This document shows, one piece after another, positions 16,282-37,586 of a DNA stretch of 48,383 nt (position 1 is the first letter of the stretch; each line of letters begins with the position of its first letter). The notes beneath the pieces are model-generated. The model saw only the letters and a program-made list of their open reading frames with translations, ran no database searches and was not told where the DNA came from. This DNA comes from Paludibacteraceae bacterium (lineage in GTDB: Bacteria > Bacteroidota > Bacteroidia > Bacteroidales > Paludibacteraceae), in NCBI GenBank assembly GCA_024400275.1, contig JAKSMY010000011.1, positions 1 through 48,383 on the forward strand, written 5' to 3'. The position numbers and the translations under genes were made by a program.

Positions 16282-16350
16282 GTGATAAAATATCACTTTT
16301 TTGCCCGATTTATTTGCGTATATCAAATTTTTGTTGTACCTTTGCACCTG
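16282..16350 (+). promoter_or_regulatory. Palindromic promoter cassette, copy 1 (araC-type gene)
   Basis: GTGATA-AAA-TATCAC at 16282-16296, then 16 bases, then TTTG (16313-16316), 20 bases and TACCTTTG (16337-16344). The whole stretch is nearly identical to the ruvA promoter on the minus strand at 34454-34523, with the same distance between palindrome and -33 box. The palindrome resembles CRP/FNR-family sites in form; the protein that binds it is unknown. Confidence 0.8.
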
Positions 16351-17438: not shown

Positions 17439-17511
17439 CGAGAAGTAGCGCAGTTGGTAGCGCACCACGTTCGGGACGTGGGGGTCGGGCGTTCGAGTCG
17501 CCTCTTCTCGA
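17439..17511 (+). tRNA. tRNA-Pro (anticodon CGG)
   Basis: Acceptor CGAGAAG (17439-17445) pairs with CTTCTCG (17504-17510), and the discriminator base is A. The anticodon stem is CCACG/CGTGG with loop TTCGGGA, so the anticodon CGG is at 17472-17474. The T stem GGGCG/CGCCT has loop TTCGAGT. The terminal CCA is not encoded (ACA follows). A terminator follows at 17518-17549. Confidence 0.95.
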
Positions 17512-26354: not shown

Positions 26355-29300
26355 TTAGCGGGTCAACATCAGTTTGACATTCAGGCCGACATTGTCGTTC
26401 TTAATCGGATAGGAAGACGAAATCAACGGGATAGTCGATTGGTGGTCGTAGAAGAATTGGATATTAATCTTCTGAGAAATAACATAATCAGCACTAATTT
26501 TTAACCCCCAAACCTTGGTGCCGCTGCTGGCTTGCGTGATGTTCTCCTCCACCTTACGTAACAACGTGGTAACATTCTTGTACGAGAAATCAGCCGTCAG
26601 TTTGAGGTCGTTACTTACCTTACGCTGTCCGCCGTTCTTGGCTTTTGCCGTGAAATGCAGATCCTTAACCGTGTAACCCGTACCTACAACAATCTCGTCT
26701 GTATGTCCTTCGGTAATCTGAACCGAACTGATATTAAGGGTGGCATTACGCTGTTTACGGTACTCGGTCTTGATGAGCAGGGAGTTCTTGAGCGTCATAT
26801 TGAGACCAATCAACGGCGAGAATGATTCGCTTAAATTGACTGCCGATATGTCGTACGCACTGCTGGCAATAGGCATACTGGTGACGGCATCACGACGGAA
26901 ACCGAGTGTCTTGTCCGAACTGCTTCCGGCAGGTACCCACGTGGAGAAACTGGTGTAGGAACTGATAGCGTATTTACATGTATAGGCGTGCGTTAAGACA
27001 AAGGACTTGAAATGTTCCTTAATGGCAGGAATACGTCCCAGACCGTCAAACGTGACACTCCAGTTTGGCATAATATGCAAAATGTCCATGAACGGATTGA
27101 AACTGACTTTGCCGATGTCCTGTTTGGTATAAGCAGCCAAGAAAGCGGGCACTAAGACATCTGCCGAGTTGTTGCTGACTTGTCCGCTATAGGTCTTGCC
27201 GTGAATAGAATCAGGGAAGATAGGATTAGAGGGGTAACGAATACCCTCGTAACGTTGTTGAACACGGTGTCTCATAACTTCCCTGTTGGACAGGAAACGG
27301 TCGAAGGTGGCAGAGGAATAATTGCTGCTGGCTTTGCCGATCTTGTCAAAGGCGGAGGCTATCGCCACTTGGGTGATGTTATACGATCCGGTCATCGTTT
27401 CCTGCAAGGTGCTCATGCCCTCATCGGGACTGACTGAATAGAGCAGGGACGACGAACGTGCCTCGTAGCGTTTGCCGTTCATCTGAATCTTAAAGCCGGG
27501 GAAGGGCTCCAAGGTTATCTTGATATCAAAGTCCGACGTACTAGCCAAGGTGGCAGGTTGCGCTATGCTGTCGCTTAGTGCCAGCCAACCTCTGTCTTTG
27601 GCTTTCTCGATGTAGTTCTTCGGGAAGAAACCGAAGGCAAAATCCCACCCCGGTGCATAAGACGAACCGCCTTGGTGATCCTGACCGAAGAAACCAATCT
27701 GCGGGTAGAAACCGGGTACGGTCAGAGCGTCGGTCTTACGGTAAGTAACCTGTACACGGCGTATCATCGTACCGAAATACGCGGCAAAGTCCATCGCCAA
27801 TTCGGCAGGCGTACGTTTATTCGGGTCACGTGTTGCCACGGAGATAGCCACGTTCTTATGACTCTCTTTGCAAGTGACTACAATCTTGTTGGCACCATCG
27901 GCTTTGAATTTGATATGAACAGCCTTGCCGGCGGCATCGGTTGCCATAACGGTCAGGTTCTCTGAATTGAGTTTATGGTCAATCTCTTTGGCTTGTCCTG
28001 CTTCCAAATCAACAGTCTCGGAATAGGTCTTGGGTCGGAACGGTCGCAAGGAAGTTCGTCCGGACATACGTTGATTGAGTTGTTTCCAGTATTTGGACTT
28101 GCTGTATAGATTCTCGAAATTGGCTTGCCCGTCAACTTGCCATGAGCGCGACGACATAGCCGTATTGCCGTAGTTGGTGCTGGAATTGCTAGTGACAGTC
28201 CTGTTCCACGTATAAGTGCCGTTGTAGGAGGCATTGGCAGTCAGCCATTCCATATAGGGAATACGGTTGAACGGTACGTTCCACGAAGCGGTAAAGACTT
28301 GTTGGTAGGTGCAGGGCGTACCCCATGTTCTTAAACTGCGCTTCACGGTGTCTTTCCACGCCTCGTAGTAATCGTGCGAGAAATTATAGTCCTTAATAAT
28401 CTCCGGCGTATAGTAACCTTCGTCAACGGTGGAGTTCATGGCTGTATGGAACGAGAACTTGATGTTCTTGGTCAGGTTGTATTTGAAGTCAAAATTACGG
28501 TCCCACGTAAAGTCCTTGCTGAAGCTCCATTGCTGGTTGGTGGGTTCGCCCGGGTTGGTGGGGTTGAAATCCCGCATCTCCAGTTGTGAGAACGTACGGT
28601 GCATATCCGTGTTGAAGGACCACGACTGCGGCAGGTAATAGAGGTTGAACTCGGTCAATATCTTGGCGTTCTTCACTTTTTCCATATCCTTGAACGGTTC
28701 CCACGGTTTGGGGTTGAACGAATAGGCATAGACGAAAGACCCTTTGTGCTCGGTGGTCTTGTCGATGGCTATTTCGGGCGAACGTTGCGTCTGCTTGTTA
28801 TAAGCCACCGATAGAGAGAAGTTGGCAGGGTCGTAGAACATATCTTTTTTCTTGGAGTGTATATCCACTTTGAAGTTGGTCAAACTCCACGACAAACTTT
28901 CCTTAACCGTATTGGCAAGGTCTTTGATGGAGTCTTTTTCGTGCTTGGTCTCGTAGGTGTCTAAGGACTCTTGGAGTTTGATATCGGTGTCGGTCGGGTC
29001 GTATTTAGGCGAGTTGACATCTTTGGAGTAGCTGACGTATAGAGGAATACGCAGTTTGGCTTTTTCGGGGAATAAGCGTCCTGCCTCTAAGGCGGCACTG
29101 ACTTGGATTTGGTAGTAGTTCTCCATGTTGCGGCTCTGCACGTTACTTTCCACACTACCGAATCCGGCTGTCTCTACACGTCCGGATACATTCAGTTGGG
29201 CAATATCACTAATGCCGAGTCCTACATTGGCCATAGCTGCCACACCGCCTTCCTCGTTAAACTCACTCAGTCGCAACTCGTTCACCCATACTTCTCCGTC

Positions 29301-32300
29301 CAGAACGGTGCTCTTATCCTTGCGGTTACGCAGACCGATAACGATATATTCCACATCTTCCAAGGTTGGGTTACCCAGTACGGTGATGCGGTTGTTATCG
29401 CCGTCATAGGTGGTGAACGGCTTGGTATTGCTGACGCTGGAATCGCCGGAACGTTTACGTTTGTTGCGCGATGTCTTGGCTCCGGTAAGTGCCGAGAACG
29501 GAATATCGATATTGTTGTTCGGATTCCACACGATAAGGCGGTCGTTCTCGTTATCGTTGTTGTAACTGGTTCCCGGAGGCGTTATTTTCAAAGGCACCTC
29601 GTATTCGTAGTAGTTGGAAGTCATATCTGTTCCCAACCGAACGAAACAGGTCAGTTCATCGTCTAACAACTCGCGTTCACCCGGTATTGCCTCGGCGTGA
29701 ATAAACATCTGCAATCGTTTATAGTTACGCAAGTCCATCGTGACACCTTTATATACCGCGCGCGCGTTGTTGTACTCCAGATTATGAACGCGCAGCACCA
29801 AAGCCTGCTCGTCTTGTGAAATCAGTTGGGCTTGTCCAGGGTCGGTTTGACGGCTGACACCAGGAGGTAAGACATAGTTGACCGGTGAGCGTCTGCCGTC
29901 CTGCTCGATGGAAACAGCCTGCACGTCTAACGATGAGTTGGAGCCGGGCAGGGTGGTGTTGTAAACAGGTATCTGTTTGCTCTCGTCGTTGTAAAGACCT
30001 TTGGTGTAATTGCGCCACTCGCCGCGCACCAGGTCCATCGTAGCGAAACGCAGCGTGGTGGTGTCCGGGCACTCAGTCAGGTACATACGCATAAACCGAA
30101 TAGATTTGAAATTACGTATGCCACCCACACGTTTGCAATTGGCTGAATCGCCTTTCAAAGGAATCTTGAACTTATACCACGTTACTTTGACTGTCTCGCC
30201 GTTCTTGAGCGTGACGTTGGTTTCCATTTTCTCGGAGATAAAGTTAGACCCGGCAGCCATAGCAGAGGGAGTCAGATTAACCTCGTATTCGTAGTATTTC
30301 TCATACTCGTTGAGGGTGTTGTCTCGGTTCATATCCTCTATATCGGGCATCAGGGTTGAGGCTGTTCCATAGTCGGAGCCGCCCGATTCGGGTGAGTTGC
30401 CTTCGGTTCCGTTATAGTGCTTATACCGGTCTAACACACTGGTCTTGGCATTGTCGTAATCGCTGCCACGATAGTAATGATAGTTATCGCCGGCAGGGTC
30501 ATTAAGTGGAGAGAAGGGGTCTGCTTGCCACTTGGGTAATAAATCAGTACCCTGTGCTATTTGTCTCATCTCTTCCACGAATTTCTTATAGGTTGGATAT
30601 TCTTTTTCCTGTGCGGTACTCAAACCGTCCAATCCGACATCTTGTGCCTCGCGTGCGCCCGATTCATTGCTGAACGCAATGGTGGTACTGGTCGTACGCG
30701 GTACACGTCCCCACACGGTCGTGTCAATCATAGTGACATCGTTGGGGTTGATAGGCAGACCGTGCTCAAAACTCTTCTTGCCGTCGCGTAACACATCTTC
30801 GCTCACATCACCCAAGTCGATGTATAATTTACCGCCTTGGTAGTTGTTATTGGTCAGGTTGGGGTCCATGAGCCAGAACTCGATATATTCGATATTGGCT
30901 TTCTCGAAGTCCGTATTGTCCAGCCGTCGCATCATACCGCCCCAACGTGTTGTCGGATTGGTCAGTTCACCCTGCGGGGTGTACTGCCCTTGTGTATAGA
31001 CGTTGTACGGACCGCGCTCTTTGGGGTAGAAAGATAGGTTGAGGATAGTGAGACGTGTGTCCTCGTTCGCCAGCGATTCTTTATTGGGGAATATCTCCTG
31101 CTGATAGACGATACGTGTACGGTGGTCGGAAAGGATATTTACATCGTCCTTGATATGTCCGGGTGTGTTCGATTGGGGGTGCCCGAAAATAGGATCGACG
31201 GCATACCAGCTCAATAGGGCGCGGTTCTTGCCGTATTCGATATTATTGCTTAACTCGGACTCTTTGAATCGGCTTGGTGTGGAACTGAGGAACCAGTTGC
31301 TGGGGTAATGTACATCAATCGCCGTGGTGGTCGATTCGAAGTCGTCTATGTAACTGGTACCGGCTTTGCCCACGTCTTTGGTGTGCCCGGGAATAAGGTG
31401 TGCAAACTCGGCACCTATTTGGAACGTACTGGGTGCAGTGGCGGTAATCCAAGGTATCCTGTCCAGTAAATTACTCAGCCACATCATATCCGTCTTGTAG
31501 TTGAGGTTGAGTCCCCAGATGGTGTTGGACAGAGGTTCCATGCCCGCACTTACTTTGGTCGTGAGAGGTGTCTCACGCAAGTGCATCAAAGTACCGCCGA
31601 TAGAGAAGTCCTTGTTGAAATCGTATTGCAGGTGCAGTCCGTATAGTCCCTTACGTTGCATACCGAAGGTGGATTGGTTCTCCAACTGCACGTTGATATT
31701 GGTTCCGGCCTCAATGAGGGACTGATTCAGAATGGTAACGATACCCATGTTATAGTCCACGGTGTAGTCCACATTCTCGACTAAGGTAGCACCGCCGGCG
31801 GTAACATGTACGCTACCGCGAGGTATATTCATGGCGTTGAGGCGTATCTCGCTGCTGTTCGTACCCTTATACTTACCGGTTAGCACGAATTTATTTTTCT
31901 CGCTCATCTCCTGCGCCACGACTAAGGTGGAGTCGTACAGTTCTTGGAAGCAGTATTTCTTAATCAGTCTGGGGTCGTTGCCCAATTGGGAAGCCAAGTG
32001 TGAACCGAAAGGTTCCAAGACAGGGAAGATAACACGTCCCATACTGCTCAAAACGGTATAGCCTTCCACGTAGTCAAAGCGTCCGTCAGGGTAGGGATTA
32101 TTGCGTTGGTCAAGGCGGTCGGCATTGAGCACGCGGATTAACTGCTTGCCTTTGGTATATTGACCTTCAGGCAGGTATTGGACTTCCTGACCGATGGAGT
32201 CGTTACGGTATTTGACATACAACTCAAATTTCTCGGAACTCATACTGCTCGCACCCAAGGAGTAGATATTTTTCATCATCAGGTGCCATGTACCGTACTT

Positions 32301-33749
32301 ATCGTTCTGCCGCCCCTGCATGGGTATAGGAGCCGTATTGCTGCTACGCAGCATTTTCAAAATAAGGGTAGGAGCCTGACGGGAGTCTTGACTCGTGCTG
32401 TTTTGGTTCATATCGGCAGAGAACTCACCGACTTGATAGACCTTGCCGCCGTAGGTGTATTCGTATGCTACAGCCAGCACCTCGTCCTGGAGCAAGGCGG
32501 ATTTAAGCGATATATAACCCAATGTGGCGTTCAGTGTGTATTCTCCGGGGCTCAATAGACGGGCTGACTCTATCTTGTCGTAGTCTTCGCCACCCATAAA
32601 GGTATGCTCGGCACTGCCCCATGCCTGCGCCTTGCCTTGCAGAAAAGAAGTAACCGATTGTATATTACGTACATCGGGCTCGTCCTTGATAAGGGAGTAG
32701 AGGGTGTTGGCATCGTTGTATGGCTTGTTCTCGCGCTGTTGTGCCACTTTGTAGAAATGAGTATCCAGCAGGTGGTCACGTTCTCCTTCTCCCAAGTCGG
32801 TAAAGGCGATGATATTGCGTGCTTGGTCGTAGTTGCCCCGTTTGTTGGTCACCCATACTTCGATACGGTTGATGGTCACGCCTCCCGTTACGAAAGGCAT
32901 CGACTCCATCGCCTTCTCGTAGTTGTCGCGGAAATAGTAGCCGAGGAAGAAGTGCTTGTTCTCGTCGTAATTATCTGCCTGCACTTCAAATTTGGTCATC
33001 TGTGCGCCGCCTTCTGACGAGGCGGACTGGCTTTCGCTGTTTTGCTGGCTGATTAAACCCTGTATGTGCAAACGTCCGAATTTCAAGTCGGTTTTAATAC
33101 CGAACAGGGCTTGGCTACCTTTGATAAGGTTGGAGTTGAGGTCCAAACTGACATTACCGGCCTCGATGGATTGGATAATATCGTCCTCTTCGCCTTTGTA
33201 GGCTATCTTGACGTTCTGTTGGTCTGCTGCAAAACTGGCTTCGGTGTTGTAGTTCATCTGCATAGTGAGACGTGTACCTACTTGACCGTTCACGTTCAGT
33301 TGGATCTTCTCGTCAAAGTCGAAGATGTTGTTATTACGGCTTCGTTTGGTAAGCGAGGGGTTGTCAATGTATTGGTGCTTGAACCCGAACATCAGTTCGG
33401 CACTACCTTGCAGTTTCAGTTGCACGCCGCCGGGACCGAACACCTTATCGGCGGGACCGATATTGAATTTCATATCGGTTATGTCAAATTTCTTCTCGTT
33501 ATCGTGCTCCACCTCACCGATTTTTTGCTGCCAGTATTGGTGGATAAATTGTTTCTCGGAGTAGTCTTTATATTCCTCCGGTGTCATCAGATAGGGTGTC
33601 GAGATGTCCAGGTCGCCCACCTTGGTGTGCATAATATAATAACCCGTTGTCGGTTGATATTCCACAACGGTTGTTACGTTATTTTGCACCTCCTGTGCCA
33701 TCAGACAGAATGGCAGCAGTAACGATAATATAAGTGTTTTAACTTTCAA
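26355..33749 (-). CDS. sprA: Type IX secretion translocon protein SprA (Sov)
   Basis: SprA forms the very large outer-membrane barrel through which type IX secretion substrates leave the cell. The 2464-residue length agrees with known SprA/Sov proteins (about 2400-2500). A signal peptide (residues 1-18, ending LMAQ) and the N-terminal VVEYQPTTGYYIMHTKVGDL and DKVFGPGGVQLKLQGSAEL stretches fit the family. The start is TTG 33749: an in-frame TAG lies directly before it and no ATG precedes the signal peptide. The gap to ruvA is a period-7 repeat array that contains this start codon. No promoter lies between, so it is probably expressed from the ruvA promoter. Confidence 0.93.
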   Translation of the reverse strand: MKVKTLILSLLLPFCLMAQEVQNNVTTVVEYQPTTGYYIMHTKVGDLDISTPYLMTPEEYKDYSEKQFIHQYWQQKIGEVEHDNEKKFDITDMKFNIGPADKVFGPGGVQLKLQGSAELMFGFKHQYIDNPSLTKRSRNNNIFDFDEKIQLNVNGQVGTRLTMQMNYNTEASFAADQQNVKIAYKGEEDDIIQSIEAGNVSLDLNSNLIKGSQALFGIKTDLKFGRLHIQGLISQQNSESQSASSEGGAQMTKFEVQADNYDENKHFFLGYYFRDNYEKAMESMPFVTGGVTINRIEVWVTNKRGNYDQARNIIAFTDLGEGERDHLLDTHFYKVAQQRENKPYNDANTLYSLIKDEPDVRNIQSVTSFLQGKAQAWGSAEHTFMGGEDYDKIESARLLSPGEYTLNATLGYISLKSALLQDEVLAVAYEYTYGGKVYQVGEFSADMNQNSTSQDSRQAPTLILKMLRSSNTAPIPMQGRQNDKYGTWHLMMKNIYSLGASSMSSEKFELYVKYRNDSIGQEVQYLPEGQYTKGKQLIRVLNADRLDQRNNPYPDGRFDYVEGYTVLSSMGRVIFPVLEPFGSHLASQLGNDPRLIKKYCFQELYDSTLVVAQEMSEKNKFVLTGKYKGTNSSEIRLNAMNIPRGSVHVTAGGATLVENVDYTVDYNMGIVTILNQSLIEAGTNINVQLENQSTFGMQRKGLYGLHLQYDFNKDFSIGGTLMHLRETPLTTKVSAGMEPLSNTIWGLNLNYKTDMMWLSNLLDRIPWITATAPSTFQIGAEFAHLIPGHTKDVGKAGTSYIDDFESTTTAIDVHYPSNWFLSSTPSRFKESELSNNIEYGKNRALLSWYAVDPIFGHPQSNTPGHIKDDVNILSDHRTRIVYQQEIFPNKESLANEDTRLTILNLSFYPKERGPYNVYTQGQYTPQGELTNPTTRWGGMMRRLDNTDFEKANIEYIEFWLMDPNLTNNNYQGGKLYIDLGDVSEDVLRDGKKSFEHGLPINPNDVTMIDTTVWGRVPRTTSTTIAFSNESGAREAQDVGLDGLSTAQEKEYPTYKKFVEEMRQIAQGTDLLPKWQADPFSPLNDPAGDNYHYYRGSDYDNAKTSVLDRYKHYNGTEGNSPESGGSDYGTASTLMPDIEDMNRDNTLNEYEKYYEYEVNLTPSAMAAGSNFISEKMETNVTLKNGETVKVTWYKFKIPLKGDSANCKRVGGIRNFKSIRFMRMYLTECPDTTTLRFATMDLVRGEWRNYTKGLYNDESKQIPVYNTTLPGSNSSLDVQAVSIEQDGRRSPVNYVLPPGVSRQTDPGQAQLISQDEQALVLRVHNLEYNNARAVYKGVTMDLRNYKRLQMFIHAEAIPGERELLDDELTCFVRLGTDMTSNYYEYEVPLKITPPGTSYNNDNENDRLIVWNPNNNIDIPFSALTGAKTSRNKRKRSGDSSVSNTKPFTTYDGDNNRITVLGNPTLEDVEYIVIGLRNRKDKSTVLDGEVWVNELRLSEFNEEGGVAAMANVGLGISDIAQLNVSGRVETAGFGSVESNVQSRNMENYYQIQVSAALEAGRLFPEKAKLRIPLYVSYSKDVNSPKYDPTDTDIKLQESLDTYETKHEKDSIKDLANTVKESLSWSLTNFKVDIHSKKKDMFYDPANFSLSVAYNKQTQRSPEIAIDKTTEHKGSFVYAYSFNPKPWEPFKDMEKVKNAKILTEFNLYYLPQSWSFNTDMHRTFSQLEMRDFNPTNPGEPTNQQWSFSKDFTWDRNFDFKYNLTKNIKFSFHTAMNSTVDEGYYTPEIIKDYNFSHDYYEAWKDTVKRSLRTWGTPCTYQQVFTASWNVPFNRIPYMEWLTANASYNGTYTWNRTVTSNSSTNYGNTAMSSRSWQVDGQANFENLYSKSKYWKQLNQRMSGRTSLRPFRPKTYSETVDLEAGQAKEIDHKLNSENLTVMATDAAGKAVHIKFKADGANKIVVTCKESHKNVAISVATRDPNKRTPAELAMDFAAYFGTMIRRVQVTYRKTDALTVPGFYPQIGFFGQDHQGGSSYAPGWDFAFGFFPKNYIEKAKDRGWLALSDSIAQPATLASTSDFDIKITLEPFPGFKIQMNGKRYEARSSSLLYSVSPDEGMSTLQETMTGSYNITQVAIASAFDKIGKASSNYSSATFDRFLSNREVMRHRVQQRYEGIRYPSNPIFPDSIHGKTYSGQVSNNSADVLVPAFLAAYTKQDIGKVSFNPFMDILHIMPNWSVTFDGLGRIPAIKEHFKSFVLTHAYTCKYAISSYTSFSTWVPAGSSSDKTLGFRRDAVTSMPIASSAYDISAVNLSESFSPLIGLNMTLKNSLLIKTEYRKQRNATLNISSVQITEGHTDEIVVGTGYTVKDLHFTAKAKNGGQRKVSNDLKLTADFSYKNVTTLLRKVEENITQASSGTKVWGLKISADYVISQKINIQFFYDHQSTIPLISSSYPIKNDNVGLNVKLMLTR

Positions 33750-34453: not shown

Positions 34454-34523
34454 AGCGTGCAAAGATACAACAAAAATTTGATATACGCAAATAAATCGGG
34501 CAATAAAGTGATATTTATATCAC
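34454..34523 (-). promoter_or_regulatory. Palindromic promoter cassette, copy 2 (ruvA-sprA)
   Basis: On the minus strand the palindrome GTGATATTTATATCAC type site (34508-34523) is followed by 16 bases, TTTG (complement of 34488-34491), 20 bases and TATCTTTG (complement of 34460-34467). Sequence and spacing match the araC-type promoter at 16282-16350 almost base for base; they differ by one base in the palindrome centre and a few substitutions. Confidence 0.8.
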
Positions 34524-34597
34524 AATGTGGTGTTTTTTTGAACGATGTGGGTGGCTTACTCTCGCTCCGTCGTTTTTGATGATACCACTAAAAAATG

Positions 34598-34663
34598 GGG
34601 TAAATGGATATTTTGTGCTAAAAAAAATGCGGGTAAATGGATATTTTGTGCTAAAAAATTTGC
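34598..34663 (+). repeat. 33-bp tandem repeat before an ATPase gene
   Basis: GGGTAAATGGATATTTTGTG plus CTAAAAAA and a final TGC occurs at 34598-34630 and 34631-34663, differing only in two bases near the end. The second copy ends within the -33 TTTG box of the ATPase promoter. A partial unit (CACTAAAAAATG) precedes it at about 34586. Confidence 0.9.
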
Positions 34664-36167: not shown

Positions 36168-36803
36168 ATGTACATCGCTATTGCGGGAAATATTGGTGCG
36201 GGAAAAACGACGCTGACCAAGATGTTGGCTAAGTATTACGGCTGGGAACCACGTTTTGAAAGCGTAGGTTTTAACCCGTATTTGGAGGACTATTACGGCG
36301 ACATCAAACGTTGGTCGTTCTGCTTGGAGACGTATTTCCTCAAGGAACGTTTCAAAGATATGCTGGCGGTGATGCAGTCCGCACATACCATTGTTCAGGA
36401 CCGCAGTATATTCGAGGGCGTGTACGTGTTTGTCACCAATAATTACCGCCGTGGCGACCTGTCCGAGCGCGACTATAACACCTACATGGAACTCTTCCGT
36501 CACATGACCTCGATGATGCGTCTGCCCGATTTGATGATCTACCTGCGTAAGTCTGTTCCGGCGTTGATAGCGCAGATTCAGAAGCGTGGGCGCGACTACG
36601 AAAAGGGCATGCAGATAGACTACCTGAAGGACCTGAACGAACGATACGAAGACTTTATCTATAATCAGTACGAAGGACGTGTGTTGGTGATTGATTCGGA
36701 TAATATGGATTTTGAGAATAATCCGGAGGATTTCAGACTGATTGTCAATAAGATAGATGCCCAACTGTTCGGACTCTTCTCGGAAGAGAATTGGAAACAC
36801 TAA
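36168..36803 (+). CDS. Deoxynucleoside kinase, first of a tandem pair
   Basis: The enzyme phosphorylates deoxynucleosides for DNA precursor salvage. In the 211-residue protein the P-loop is GNIGAGKTT (residues 7-15), with RFESVGFNPYLEDYYGD and the DRS motif QDRSIFEGVYVF, then the LID-region KRGRDYE. It is clearly homologous to the next gene over its whole length. By analogy with the dAK/dGK pairs of some lactobacilli the two could form a heterodimer with different substrates; this is inference. Confidence 0.9.
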   Translation: MYIAIAGNIGAGKTTLTKMLAKYYGWEPRFESVGFNPYLEDYYGDIKRWSFCLETYFLKERFKDMLAVMQSAHTIVQDRSIFEGVYVFVTNNYRRGDLSERDYNTYMELFRHMTSMMRLPDLMIYLRKSVPALIAQIQKRGRDYEKGMQIDYLKDLNERYEDFIYNQYEGRVLVIDSDNMDFENNPEDFRLIVNKIDAQLFGLFSEENWKH

Positions 36804-36935: not shown

Positions 36936-37586
36936 ATGCATATCGCGATAGCCGGTAATATCGGTTGTGGTAAAACCACACTCACCAACATGCTTGCCAA
37001 ACATTATGGCTGGACTCCACGTTTTGAATCCGTTGACTTTAACCCCTATTTGGAAGATTTCTACGGGGATATGTCGCGTTGGTCTTTTAATCTGCAAATC
37101 TATTTCCTGAACAAGCGTTTTCAGGATATTATTGACATATCCAAGTCGCAGGATTATATCATTCAGGACCGTACTATCTACGAGGACGCGCGTATCTTTG
37201 CGCCCAACCTGCATGAGCAGGGTTTCATGTCCGACCGCGATTTTGACAACTATTCTGACTTGTTCAATCTGATGATGTCGCTGGTCAAGATGCCGGATTT
37301 GATGATTTATATCCGTTCAAGTATTCCCAATCTGGTGGCGCAGATTCAGAAACGTGGCCGTGCTTACGAGTCCTCTATGCGTATCGATTACCTGCAAGGC
37401 CTGAACGATAAATACGAGGCGTGGATAAAAGATTACAAGGGTAAACTGTTGATTATTCCGGGCGATACGTGTAAGTTCGGTAATGACCCGAAAGATTTCC
37501 ACTGGGTTACCGACCGTATCGATGCCGAGTTGTTCGGCTTGTTCCCCTTCGAATCCGAGCAGAACGTAGGAAAAGAGATAAAATAA
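36936..37586 (+). CDS. Deoxynucleoside kinase, second of a tandem pair
   Basis: The 216-residue paralogue of the preceding gene has P-loop GNIGCGKTT, RFESVDFNPYLEDFYGD, QDRTIYEDARIFAPNL and KRGRAYESSM. The DRS Ser is replaced by Thr and the following residues differ, which may change substrate preference. It starts 132 bases after its partner; that gap contains no promoter of standard form or gene, only a short AAACCTGCTCAACCC period-9 trace. Probably co-transcribed. Confidence 0.9.
   Translation: MHIAIAGNIGCGKTTLTNMLAKHYGWTPRFESVDFNPYLEDFYGDMSRWSFNLQIYFLNKRFQDIIDISKSQDYIIQDRTIYEDARIFAPNLHEQGFMSDRDFDNYSDLFNLMMSLVKMPDLMIYIRSSIPNLVAQIQKRGRAYESSMRIDYLQGLNDKYEAWIKDYKGKLLIIPGDTCKFGNDPKDFHWVTDRIDAELFGLFPFESEQNVGKEIK

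Follow-up and report, generated by a model that had tools for sequence, protein, structure and literature searches.

Two nearly identical promoter cassettes, one upstream of a gene for an AraC-type regulator and the other upstream of ruvA, probably derive from a promoter-bearing intergenic element that is dispersed in Paludibacteraceae, either as remnants of its 3′ part or as short forms of it. Both lie in the window, the whole 48,383-nt stretch of a Paludibacteraceae bacterium contig (JAKSMY010000011.1) that was analysed here. Read from the left, a full element would open with a promoter-like end (TTGTAnnTT), continue through hairpin domain D, a conserved linker and a four-way cloverleaf, and close with a right promoter. 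This right promoter, a complete -33/-7 promoter, would overlap or abut the 3′ strand of the cloverleaf's closing stem, P1, and read into the next gene. At the level of sequence comparison, the copies form a family, are dispersed before unrelated genes and keep a fixed promoter position, and at orthologous genes they are present in one genome and absent from another, or exchanged for a different type.

The initial annotation had described an agreement of about 70 bases between 16282-16350 on the plus strand and 34454-34523 on the minus strand. Local alignment confirmed it, with 65 of 68 aligned columns identical, one 1-base gap and two mismatches, and a score of 119 against a maximum of 33 in 200 dinucleotide shuffles (28 when the other region was shuffled). 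In a gap-free 60-base register the cassettes match at 58 of 60 positions, while the runners-up in the window, which are two other promoters, match at 42. The window has 2 sites at which the palindrome is followed after 8-30 nt by TTTGCRTATNTCA, and none of 100 shuffles has one. The GTGATA...TATCAC palindrome that the cassettes were said to share is indeed present at both, at nearly equal distance from the promoter, but its spacer differs by one base, giving total lengths of 15 bp (araC) and 16 bp (ruvA). The promoters of the two cassettes are, by consensus, of the Bacteroidetes -33/-7 type (Table 1). ruvA and sprA are likely co-transcribed, and several close homologs of RuvA and of the AraC-type regulator are recorded under Paludibacteraceae names. 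An Rfam search of the window returned a tRNA as its sole match; the tRNA gene lies at 17439-17511, downstream of the AraC-type gene.

Table 1. Cassette features and associated genes in the window
Feature	Position	Strand	Basis
Palindrome GTGATA-AAA-TATCAC upstream of the AraC-type gene	16282..16296	+	sequence; alignment with hairpin C in a full copy from G098
TTTTTTGCCCGATTTATTTGCGT, counterpart of the 3′ strand of closing stem P1 (TTGCCC 16301-16306); 5′ strand absent	16297..16319	+	alignment to full copies
AraC-type gene promoter: -33 TTTG 16313-16316, -7 TACCTTTG 16337-16344	16313..16344	+	consensus match
AraC-type regulator (HTH_18), 281 aa	16369..17214	+	
sprA (T9SS translocon), 42 bases downstream of ruvA, same strand	26355..33749	-	TIGR04189
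ruvA, 202 aa	33792..34400	-	TIGR00084, Pfam
ruvA promoter: -33 TTTG 34491-34488, -7 TATCTTTG 34467-34460	34460..34491	-	sequence
TTTATTGCCCGATTTATTTGCGT, counterpart of the P1 3′ strand, ruvA cassette	34485..34507	-	alignment to full copies
Palindrome GTGATA-TAAA-TATCAC upstream of ruvA, hairpin C of the element	34508..34523	-	sequence, alignment
Arm-B-like hairpin region GTGGT...AACGA...TCGTT...ACCAC near the ruvA cassette	34527..34588	-	3′ side aligns with arm B of G098 copy

The claim that the cassette is more conserved than ordinary promoters holds for its 5′ half and fails for the rest. An 86-base cassette query gave 40-44 matches in each of 12 relatives (a lower bound, with about 40 candidates scored per genome), and most of the listed matches span only positions ~35-83. 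On this comparison, the last ~45 bases of the cassette, from the -33 box to the start site, are a common strong promoter form of Paludibacteraceae, and the unusual part is the 5′ ~25-30 bases (palindrome and TTGCCC) in combination with that promoter. A plain strong-promoter form, considered as an account of the whole cassette, holds for its 3′ half only. A GTGATA-type palindrome (2-6 base spacer) with a -33 box 8-30 bases further on was found at 4 sites in 3 of 358 family genomes (G033, G098 and G110). All four sites carry TGCCC-N4-TATTTGCGTAT, as the window does, though TGCCC was absent from the query, and a query of the right arm plus TGCCC returned the identical four sites. Since TGCCC came with all four sites unasked, palindrome and TGCCC make up one unit. 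The total length of the palindrome is 15, 16, 17 or 18 bp across the window and its relatives, and the copies in the relatives have N5-6 spacers; scans with the exact window spacer (N3-4) gave no match in genome or viral contigs. A 30-base promoter piece had no match in viral contigs, the ruvA region had none in plasmids, and no related ruvA was found in viral contigs. At the ruvA loci of relatives (41 of 44 counted, L042-L044 being excluded for wrong starts and L011 being off by a few bases), 37 of 41 have a -33/-7 match within 300 bases upstream of ruvA, and a GTGA/TCAC palindrome of the window kind was found within that distance in 0 of 41. Palindromes with arms of at least 7 were present upstream of 16 of 100 promoters (39 loci), compared with 6.9 in shuffles and 5 farther upstream; because this general enrichment is weak, we make no claim that every promoter has one.

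Among the genomes compared, the closest relatives are G110 and G098 (RuvA 88% each), and both carry window-type copies as well as copies with another palindrome. BLAST with a G098 copy recovered long copies in these two genomes, mostly with ATAGATT-aaa-AATCTAT at the position of the palindrome. For G110, nearly the whole genome was sampled (44 contigs, 1,649,037 bases). A profile from 13 copies gave 76 matches there at E <= 0.01, in which copies, opposite-strand matches and ordinary promoters are mixed: 46 went into a folding set that includes some weak matches, maybe ordinary promoters; 22 were partial or opposite-strand; and 8 were skipped for having no recognised -33 box, at least five of these being copies by eye (C9:2190, C41:65253, C10:14666, C9:190 and C11:293). 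A covariance model gave 54 matches in G110, of which 35 are distinct sense sites at E <= 1e-3, 5 have larger E values and 14 fall on the opposite strand of the same sites. The initial annotation had proposed a genome-wide count of the cassette, with hundreds of promoters pointing to a housekeeping form and absence from related strains speaking against regulation. The outcome lies in between, with about 35 model-detected sites in G110, not hundreds, and related species that often lack a copy at a given gene.

Stretches of about 120-450 bases are common to the copies, whose homology usually stops close to the -7 box or the start site, 30-50 bases beyond the -33 box. The genes behind the G110 copies are diverse and unrelated; by their opening residues, they presumably include rsmH, pgk, gyrB, rplU, the trigger factor gene, secDF, pheT and dapB. 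Homologous promoter regions precede non-homologous genes twice in the window and many times in G110. For 20 full copies of G110, the neighbouring gene upstream is co-directional in 11 cases and opposite in 6, with a contig end in the other 3. An intrinsic terminator of the upstream gene was considered and rejected, because the ruvA cassette has a divergently oriented gene upstream of it and the G110 neighbours are mixed in orientation. Other dispersed intergenic modules of G110 (L265:1750-1963, L241:453-667 and L246), for example with TCGCGACCACTCAATCACTGCCAAAACCA, also precede promoters. In some G110 copies other modules replace the left part of the element, and the intergenic regions are therefore mosaic.

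The ruvA cassette aligns with a full G098 copy over 104 columns, including the 3′ side of arm B, with a score of 139 against a shuffle maximum of 29. It is also the best match in the window to covariance model R1, which was built on 15 copies aligned without structure (34642-34480, 21.5 bits, E 0.002). The second-best match, at E 0.019, is the araC cassette, and the next ones, at E 0.041 and 0.043, presumably arise by chance. Because the araC match is weak and out of register, it is the identity with the ruvA copy that makes the araC cassette a member. The 5′ strand of P1 and hairpin A were not found upstream of either window cassette, and strong folding was not found in either copy (z -1.2 for ruvA and -0.4 for araC); we take both window cassettes for what is left of the 3′ part of the element, or for a shortened version of it. 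The divergent ruvA and AAA ATPase promoters are separated by a stretch that holds two tandem copies of a ~27-base unit, TTTTTTAGCACAAAATATCCATTTACCC, at 34597-34660 on the minus strand.

The predicted fold of a full copy is a four-way junction built from closing stem P1, hairpin A, the long arm B and hairpin C. The palindrome of the cassettes corresponds to hairpin C, and TTGCCC pairs in fuller copies with GGGCAA on the opposite side of P1. As the 3′ strand of P1 reads TTGCCC...TTTGCGTAT, the -33 box falls inside the stem. Folding at z <= -3.9 was obtained for 21 of 44 G110 copies, compared with 4-5 of 100 other promoters, and about half of the G110 copies are without a strong fold. A cloverleaf appeared in the predicted fold of 17 of 43 G110 copies, compared with 11 of 241 other promoters, two of these 11 being copies missed before, and 29 of 430 shuffles. 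The z scoring took 44 of the 46 members of the G110 set together with the two window copies, and the cloverleaf count took 43. In the 15 copies aligned without a structure model, two-sided changes occur at 9 of 27 pairs against 3.4 +- 1.1 in shuffles, a comparison in which the structure had been read from the same alignment, which favours it. In a model-fitted alignment of 80 matches the covariation score was 0.583, compared with 0.158 +- 0.008 in shuffles and at most 0.098 with slid partners; two-sided changes there affected 27 of 27 pairs, little above the shuffle mean of 22.6 (2 of 500 shuffles were as high), and of the two measures it is the score that is distinctive. The alignments thus show, in the letters of the copies, a compensated structure of the element. 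Left of the cloverleaf (L313-L340), a second structured domain has the closing stems TTGGG/CCCAA, TTCGG/CCGAA and TTCGAGG/CCTCGAA, and the linker takes the form AAnGTACGTTCGCGTCCTGCGGnACATACGC; linker and second domain are alike in many species.

The element is not confined to the closest relatives. Model R1 matches at least 35 of 358 family genomes at E <= 1e-4, and because eight candidates were scored per genome under stricter filters, the copy and genome counts are lower bounds. At the best loci checked (28 of 30 fetched, those of G110 and G098 being left out as they were studied otherwise), 28 of 28 have a -33/-7 promoter whose start lies from 13 bases upstream to 10 bases downstream of the model end; as background, 249 of 5000 70-base windows drawn at random from intergenic G110 sequence match this -33/-7 expression. 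The -33 box is inside P1 in the near relatives of the window, and P1 ends 0-10 bases before the -33 box in many distant genomes. In some species, such as those of loci L029 and L002, the letters of the arms are largely different, with the topology kept.

Copies also differ between orthologous promoters. The G110 ortholog of the AraC-type gene (62% identity) has an ordinary promoter and no cassette, and, conversely, the promoters of the deoxynucleoside kinase gene and of the first gene of the window have a copy in G110 and none in the window. The kinase gene (36168-36803) is adjacent to another at 36936-37586, which matches the same G110 gene pair at 53.6% and is therefore probably a kinase paralog. 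At ruvA three different types occur: GTGATAT in the window, ATAGATT in G098 and AGATAGAT in G110. Between G110 and G098, presence differs at pgk (partial copy in G110) and at the genes behind the G098 copies L296 and L157, at one gene pair both genomes have a full copy, though not of the same type, and dapB has the same type in both; at one more pair the G098 contig ends too early for a comparison. An element lies upstream of ruvA in G110, G098, G107 and G108 (4 of 30 loci), also at L002 and L029, and in partial form in the window, and there was no model match upstream of ruvA in G109, G027 and G025 (RuvA 80-82%). An enrichment of the element at ruvA was looked for and not established, with folds of z below -4 in 2 of 31 ruvA promoters versus 3 of 58 others. 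The proposal that the cassettes represent a duplicated module was sound, and the palindrome belongs to that module. The proposal that the module links DNA repair and type IX secretion to the AraC-type gene is not supported, because the genes behind the copies are diverse and the copies turn over, as at the cassette-free araC ortholog of G110.

Copies may have spread by insertion or gene conversion, bringing a ready promoter with them; the upstream part would then decay while selection keeps the promoter, and the palindrome would be left as a fossil. The element is short, non-coding, multi-copy and intergenic, as in a MITE, and P1 is an inverted repeat, but the homology of the copies continues past P1 on both sides. 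In a comparison of flanks, from which L318 was dropped for its short flank, the two flanks of the same copy were alike at 15.6 of 24 positions versus 14.6 of 24 for flanks of different copies, and the comparison revealed neither exact insertion ends nor target duplications. In L322 and L330 the left-end promoter is identical to the right-end promoter over 24 bases, which looks like an insertion duplication; this is generally not so. Y1_Tnp, the only mobiliser family searched, gave 0 matches in G110 and G098, and 2 of 9 genomes were positive, in a search of draft genomes. A RAYT-type mobiliser was rejected, given the absence of Y1_Tnp from the main carriers G110 and G098.

Several other explanations were weighed. 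A dimeric regulator might bind the palindrome (centre near -59, estimated from the -7 box) as a shared operator and co-regulate the AraC-type gene and ruvA-sprA, as the nearly equal distances to the promoter at both sites and the GTGATA-type copies in G033, G098 and G110 would allow. We think this very improbable: the length of the palindrome varies from 15 to 18 bp, its arms are swapped for ATAGATT/AATCTAT in the sister species, ruvA included, it is absent at the araC ortholog of G110, the downstream genes are unrelated, and the TTGCCC beyond the palindrome is accounted for by pairing. A rigid CRP/FNR-type dimer site would not be expected to vary its spacing or exchange the letters of its arms. 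The CRP/FNR-like site that the initial annotation had suggested was accordingly rejected, on the 15-18 bp spacing, the letters exchanged at ruvA and the absence at the araC ortholog, the palindrome being a hairpin of a larger structure. An account with no mobile element and no function, in which gene conversion acts between similar promoters and template switching perfects quasi-palindromes, also seems improbable to us. It would fit the likeness of copies within a genome, the mosaic of upstream modules and the exactly complementary arms with few G-U pairs, but it leaves aside both the presence or absence of copies at orthologous promoters and a four-helix topology that recurs with different letters in many genomes, at the promoter in 28 of 28 loci.

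Whether the structure acts as RNA or as DNA bears on two further explanations. The copies could be a multi-copy, structured non-coding RNA gene that is transcribed from the left promoter and has a 3′ end extending over the next gene's promoter. By eye, a complete promoter is present at the left end in 8 of 26 copies, the left flank is like the right promoter at 20 or more of 24 positions in 6 of 47, the linker and the apical letters are conserved, and covariation is strong; yet 18 of the 26 copies are without a complete left promoter, and an Rfam search of six loci with copies gave no meaningful match (three matches, E 3.6-3.7). Moreover, an RNA structure should show a clear excess of G-U over A-C on the RNA strand. 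G-U and A-C pairs numbered 26 and 25 in the 58 sense rows, and 5 and 8 in the 28 one-per-genome rows, with a model that permits G-U; the remaining 22 of 80 rows are antisense matches of the same loci and were counted separately (G-U 10, A-C 16). We therefore consider an RNA gene unlikely. As G-U does not exceed A-C, a DNA-level structure, or a DNA process such as template switching that keeps the arms complementary, is favoured, and we infer that the structure matters as DNA, single-stranded or cruciform. Cruciform extrusion could then hide or expose the -33 box, triggered by supercoiling or by a protein that binds junctions, such as RuvA, and the element would owe its maintenance to regulation and not simply to spreading. 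Such a DNA switch would be in keeping with the DNA-like pairing statistics, the promoter found next to the cloverleaf's right end at all 28 loci checked, the -33 box within P1 in the closest relatives of the window, and the elements at the ruvA promoters of G110, G098, G107, G108, L002 and L029. It is nonetheless doubtful, as P1 ends 0-10 bases before the -33 box in many distant genomes, the window copies cannot fold in this way, enrichment at ruvA is not established (2 of 31 versus 3 of 58), and G109, G027 and G025 are without the element at ruvA. RuvA binds four-way junctions, and its self-control is therefore attractive, as a hypothesis only. More speculatively, and with little confidence on our part, the element might represent a new class, in which a cloverleaf kept as DNA at or over the -33 box spreads a ready-made promoter and serves, while intact, as a junction- or supercoil-responsive switch. 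If this were true, ruvA, a recurrent host, would form a self-sensing circuit.

The promoter-bearing element that we prefer as the source of the cassettes resembles several known systems in part. Putative mobile promoters are homologous promoter regions before non-homologous genes in one genome, and the Paludibacteraceae element is like them in this respect and in its presence or absence at orthologs; to our knowledge, that concept does not include a conserved four-way structure that abuts the promoter. REP and REPIN sequences, which are associated with RAYT proteins, are palindromes scattered through intergenic regions; their arms show compensatory changes, and they probably act as single-stranded DNA. 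By comparison, the element spans ~150-300 bases, has a promoter at one end in all loci checked, and occurs in G110 and G098 without Y1_Tnp. CRP/FNR-family operators have a GTGA...TCAC inverted repeat upstream of the promoter, as do the window cassettes, whereas the element has variable spacing and exchanged arms, and its palindrome sits within a larger structure. Our literature search, in which subscription papers were partly beyond coverage, found no description of such an element, and the nearest was BrickBuilt. This MITE of Porphyromonas gingivalis has a 23-nt tandem repeat, short terminal inverted repeats and 19 copies in one strain (PMC4596501). In the accessible part of that report, the authors found it only in P. 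gingivalis and raised the idea of a putative mobile promoter (PMC4596501). As far as that part describes it, BrickBuilt is, like the Paludibacteraceae element, a multi-copy, non-coding intergenic repeat of Bacteroidales with predicted stem-loops and no Rfam match, and it has outward promoter activity where the Paludibacteraceae element has a promoter by -33/-7 match; in contrast to BrickBuilt, the element has no tandem repeat in inspected copies, forms a predicted four-way cloverleaf and is family-wide with exchanged letters (PMC4596501). Covarying structured RNAs from Bacteroidales intergenic regions have also been described (Weinberg et al., 2010; PMC2864571). The element is likewise covarying and intergenic but, judged against the accessible part of that work, differs in having no match to Rfam motifs and no G-U excess (Weinberg et al., 2010; PMC2864571).

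If the cassettes are indeed remnants of a dispersed promoter-bearing element, the family would carry tens of promoter copies per genome, with a four-armed DNA structure of their own, that turn over between sister species. A promoter structure that pairs by DNA rather than RNA rules would be unusual and directly testable. The finding would also call for caution, in that near-identical promoter cassettes need not imply co-regulation, and it would offer a testable route by which housekeeping genes change their promoters.
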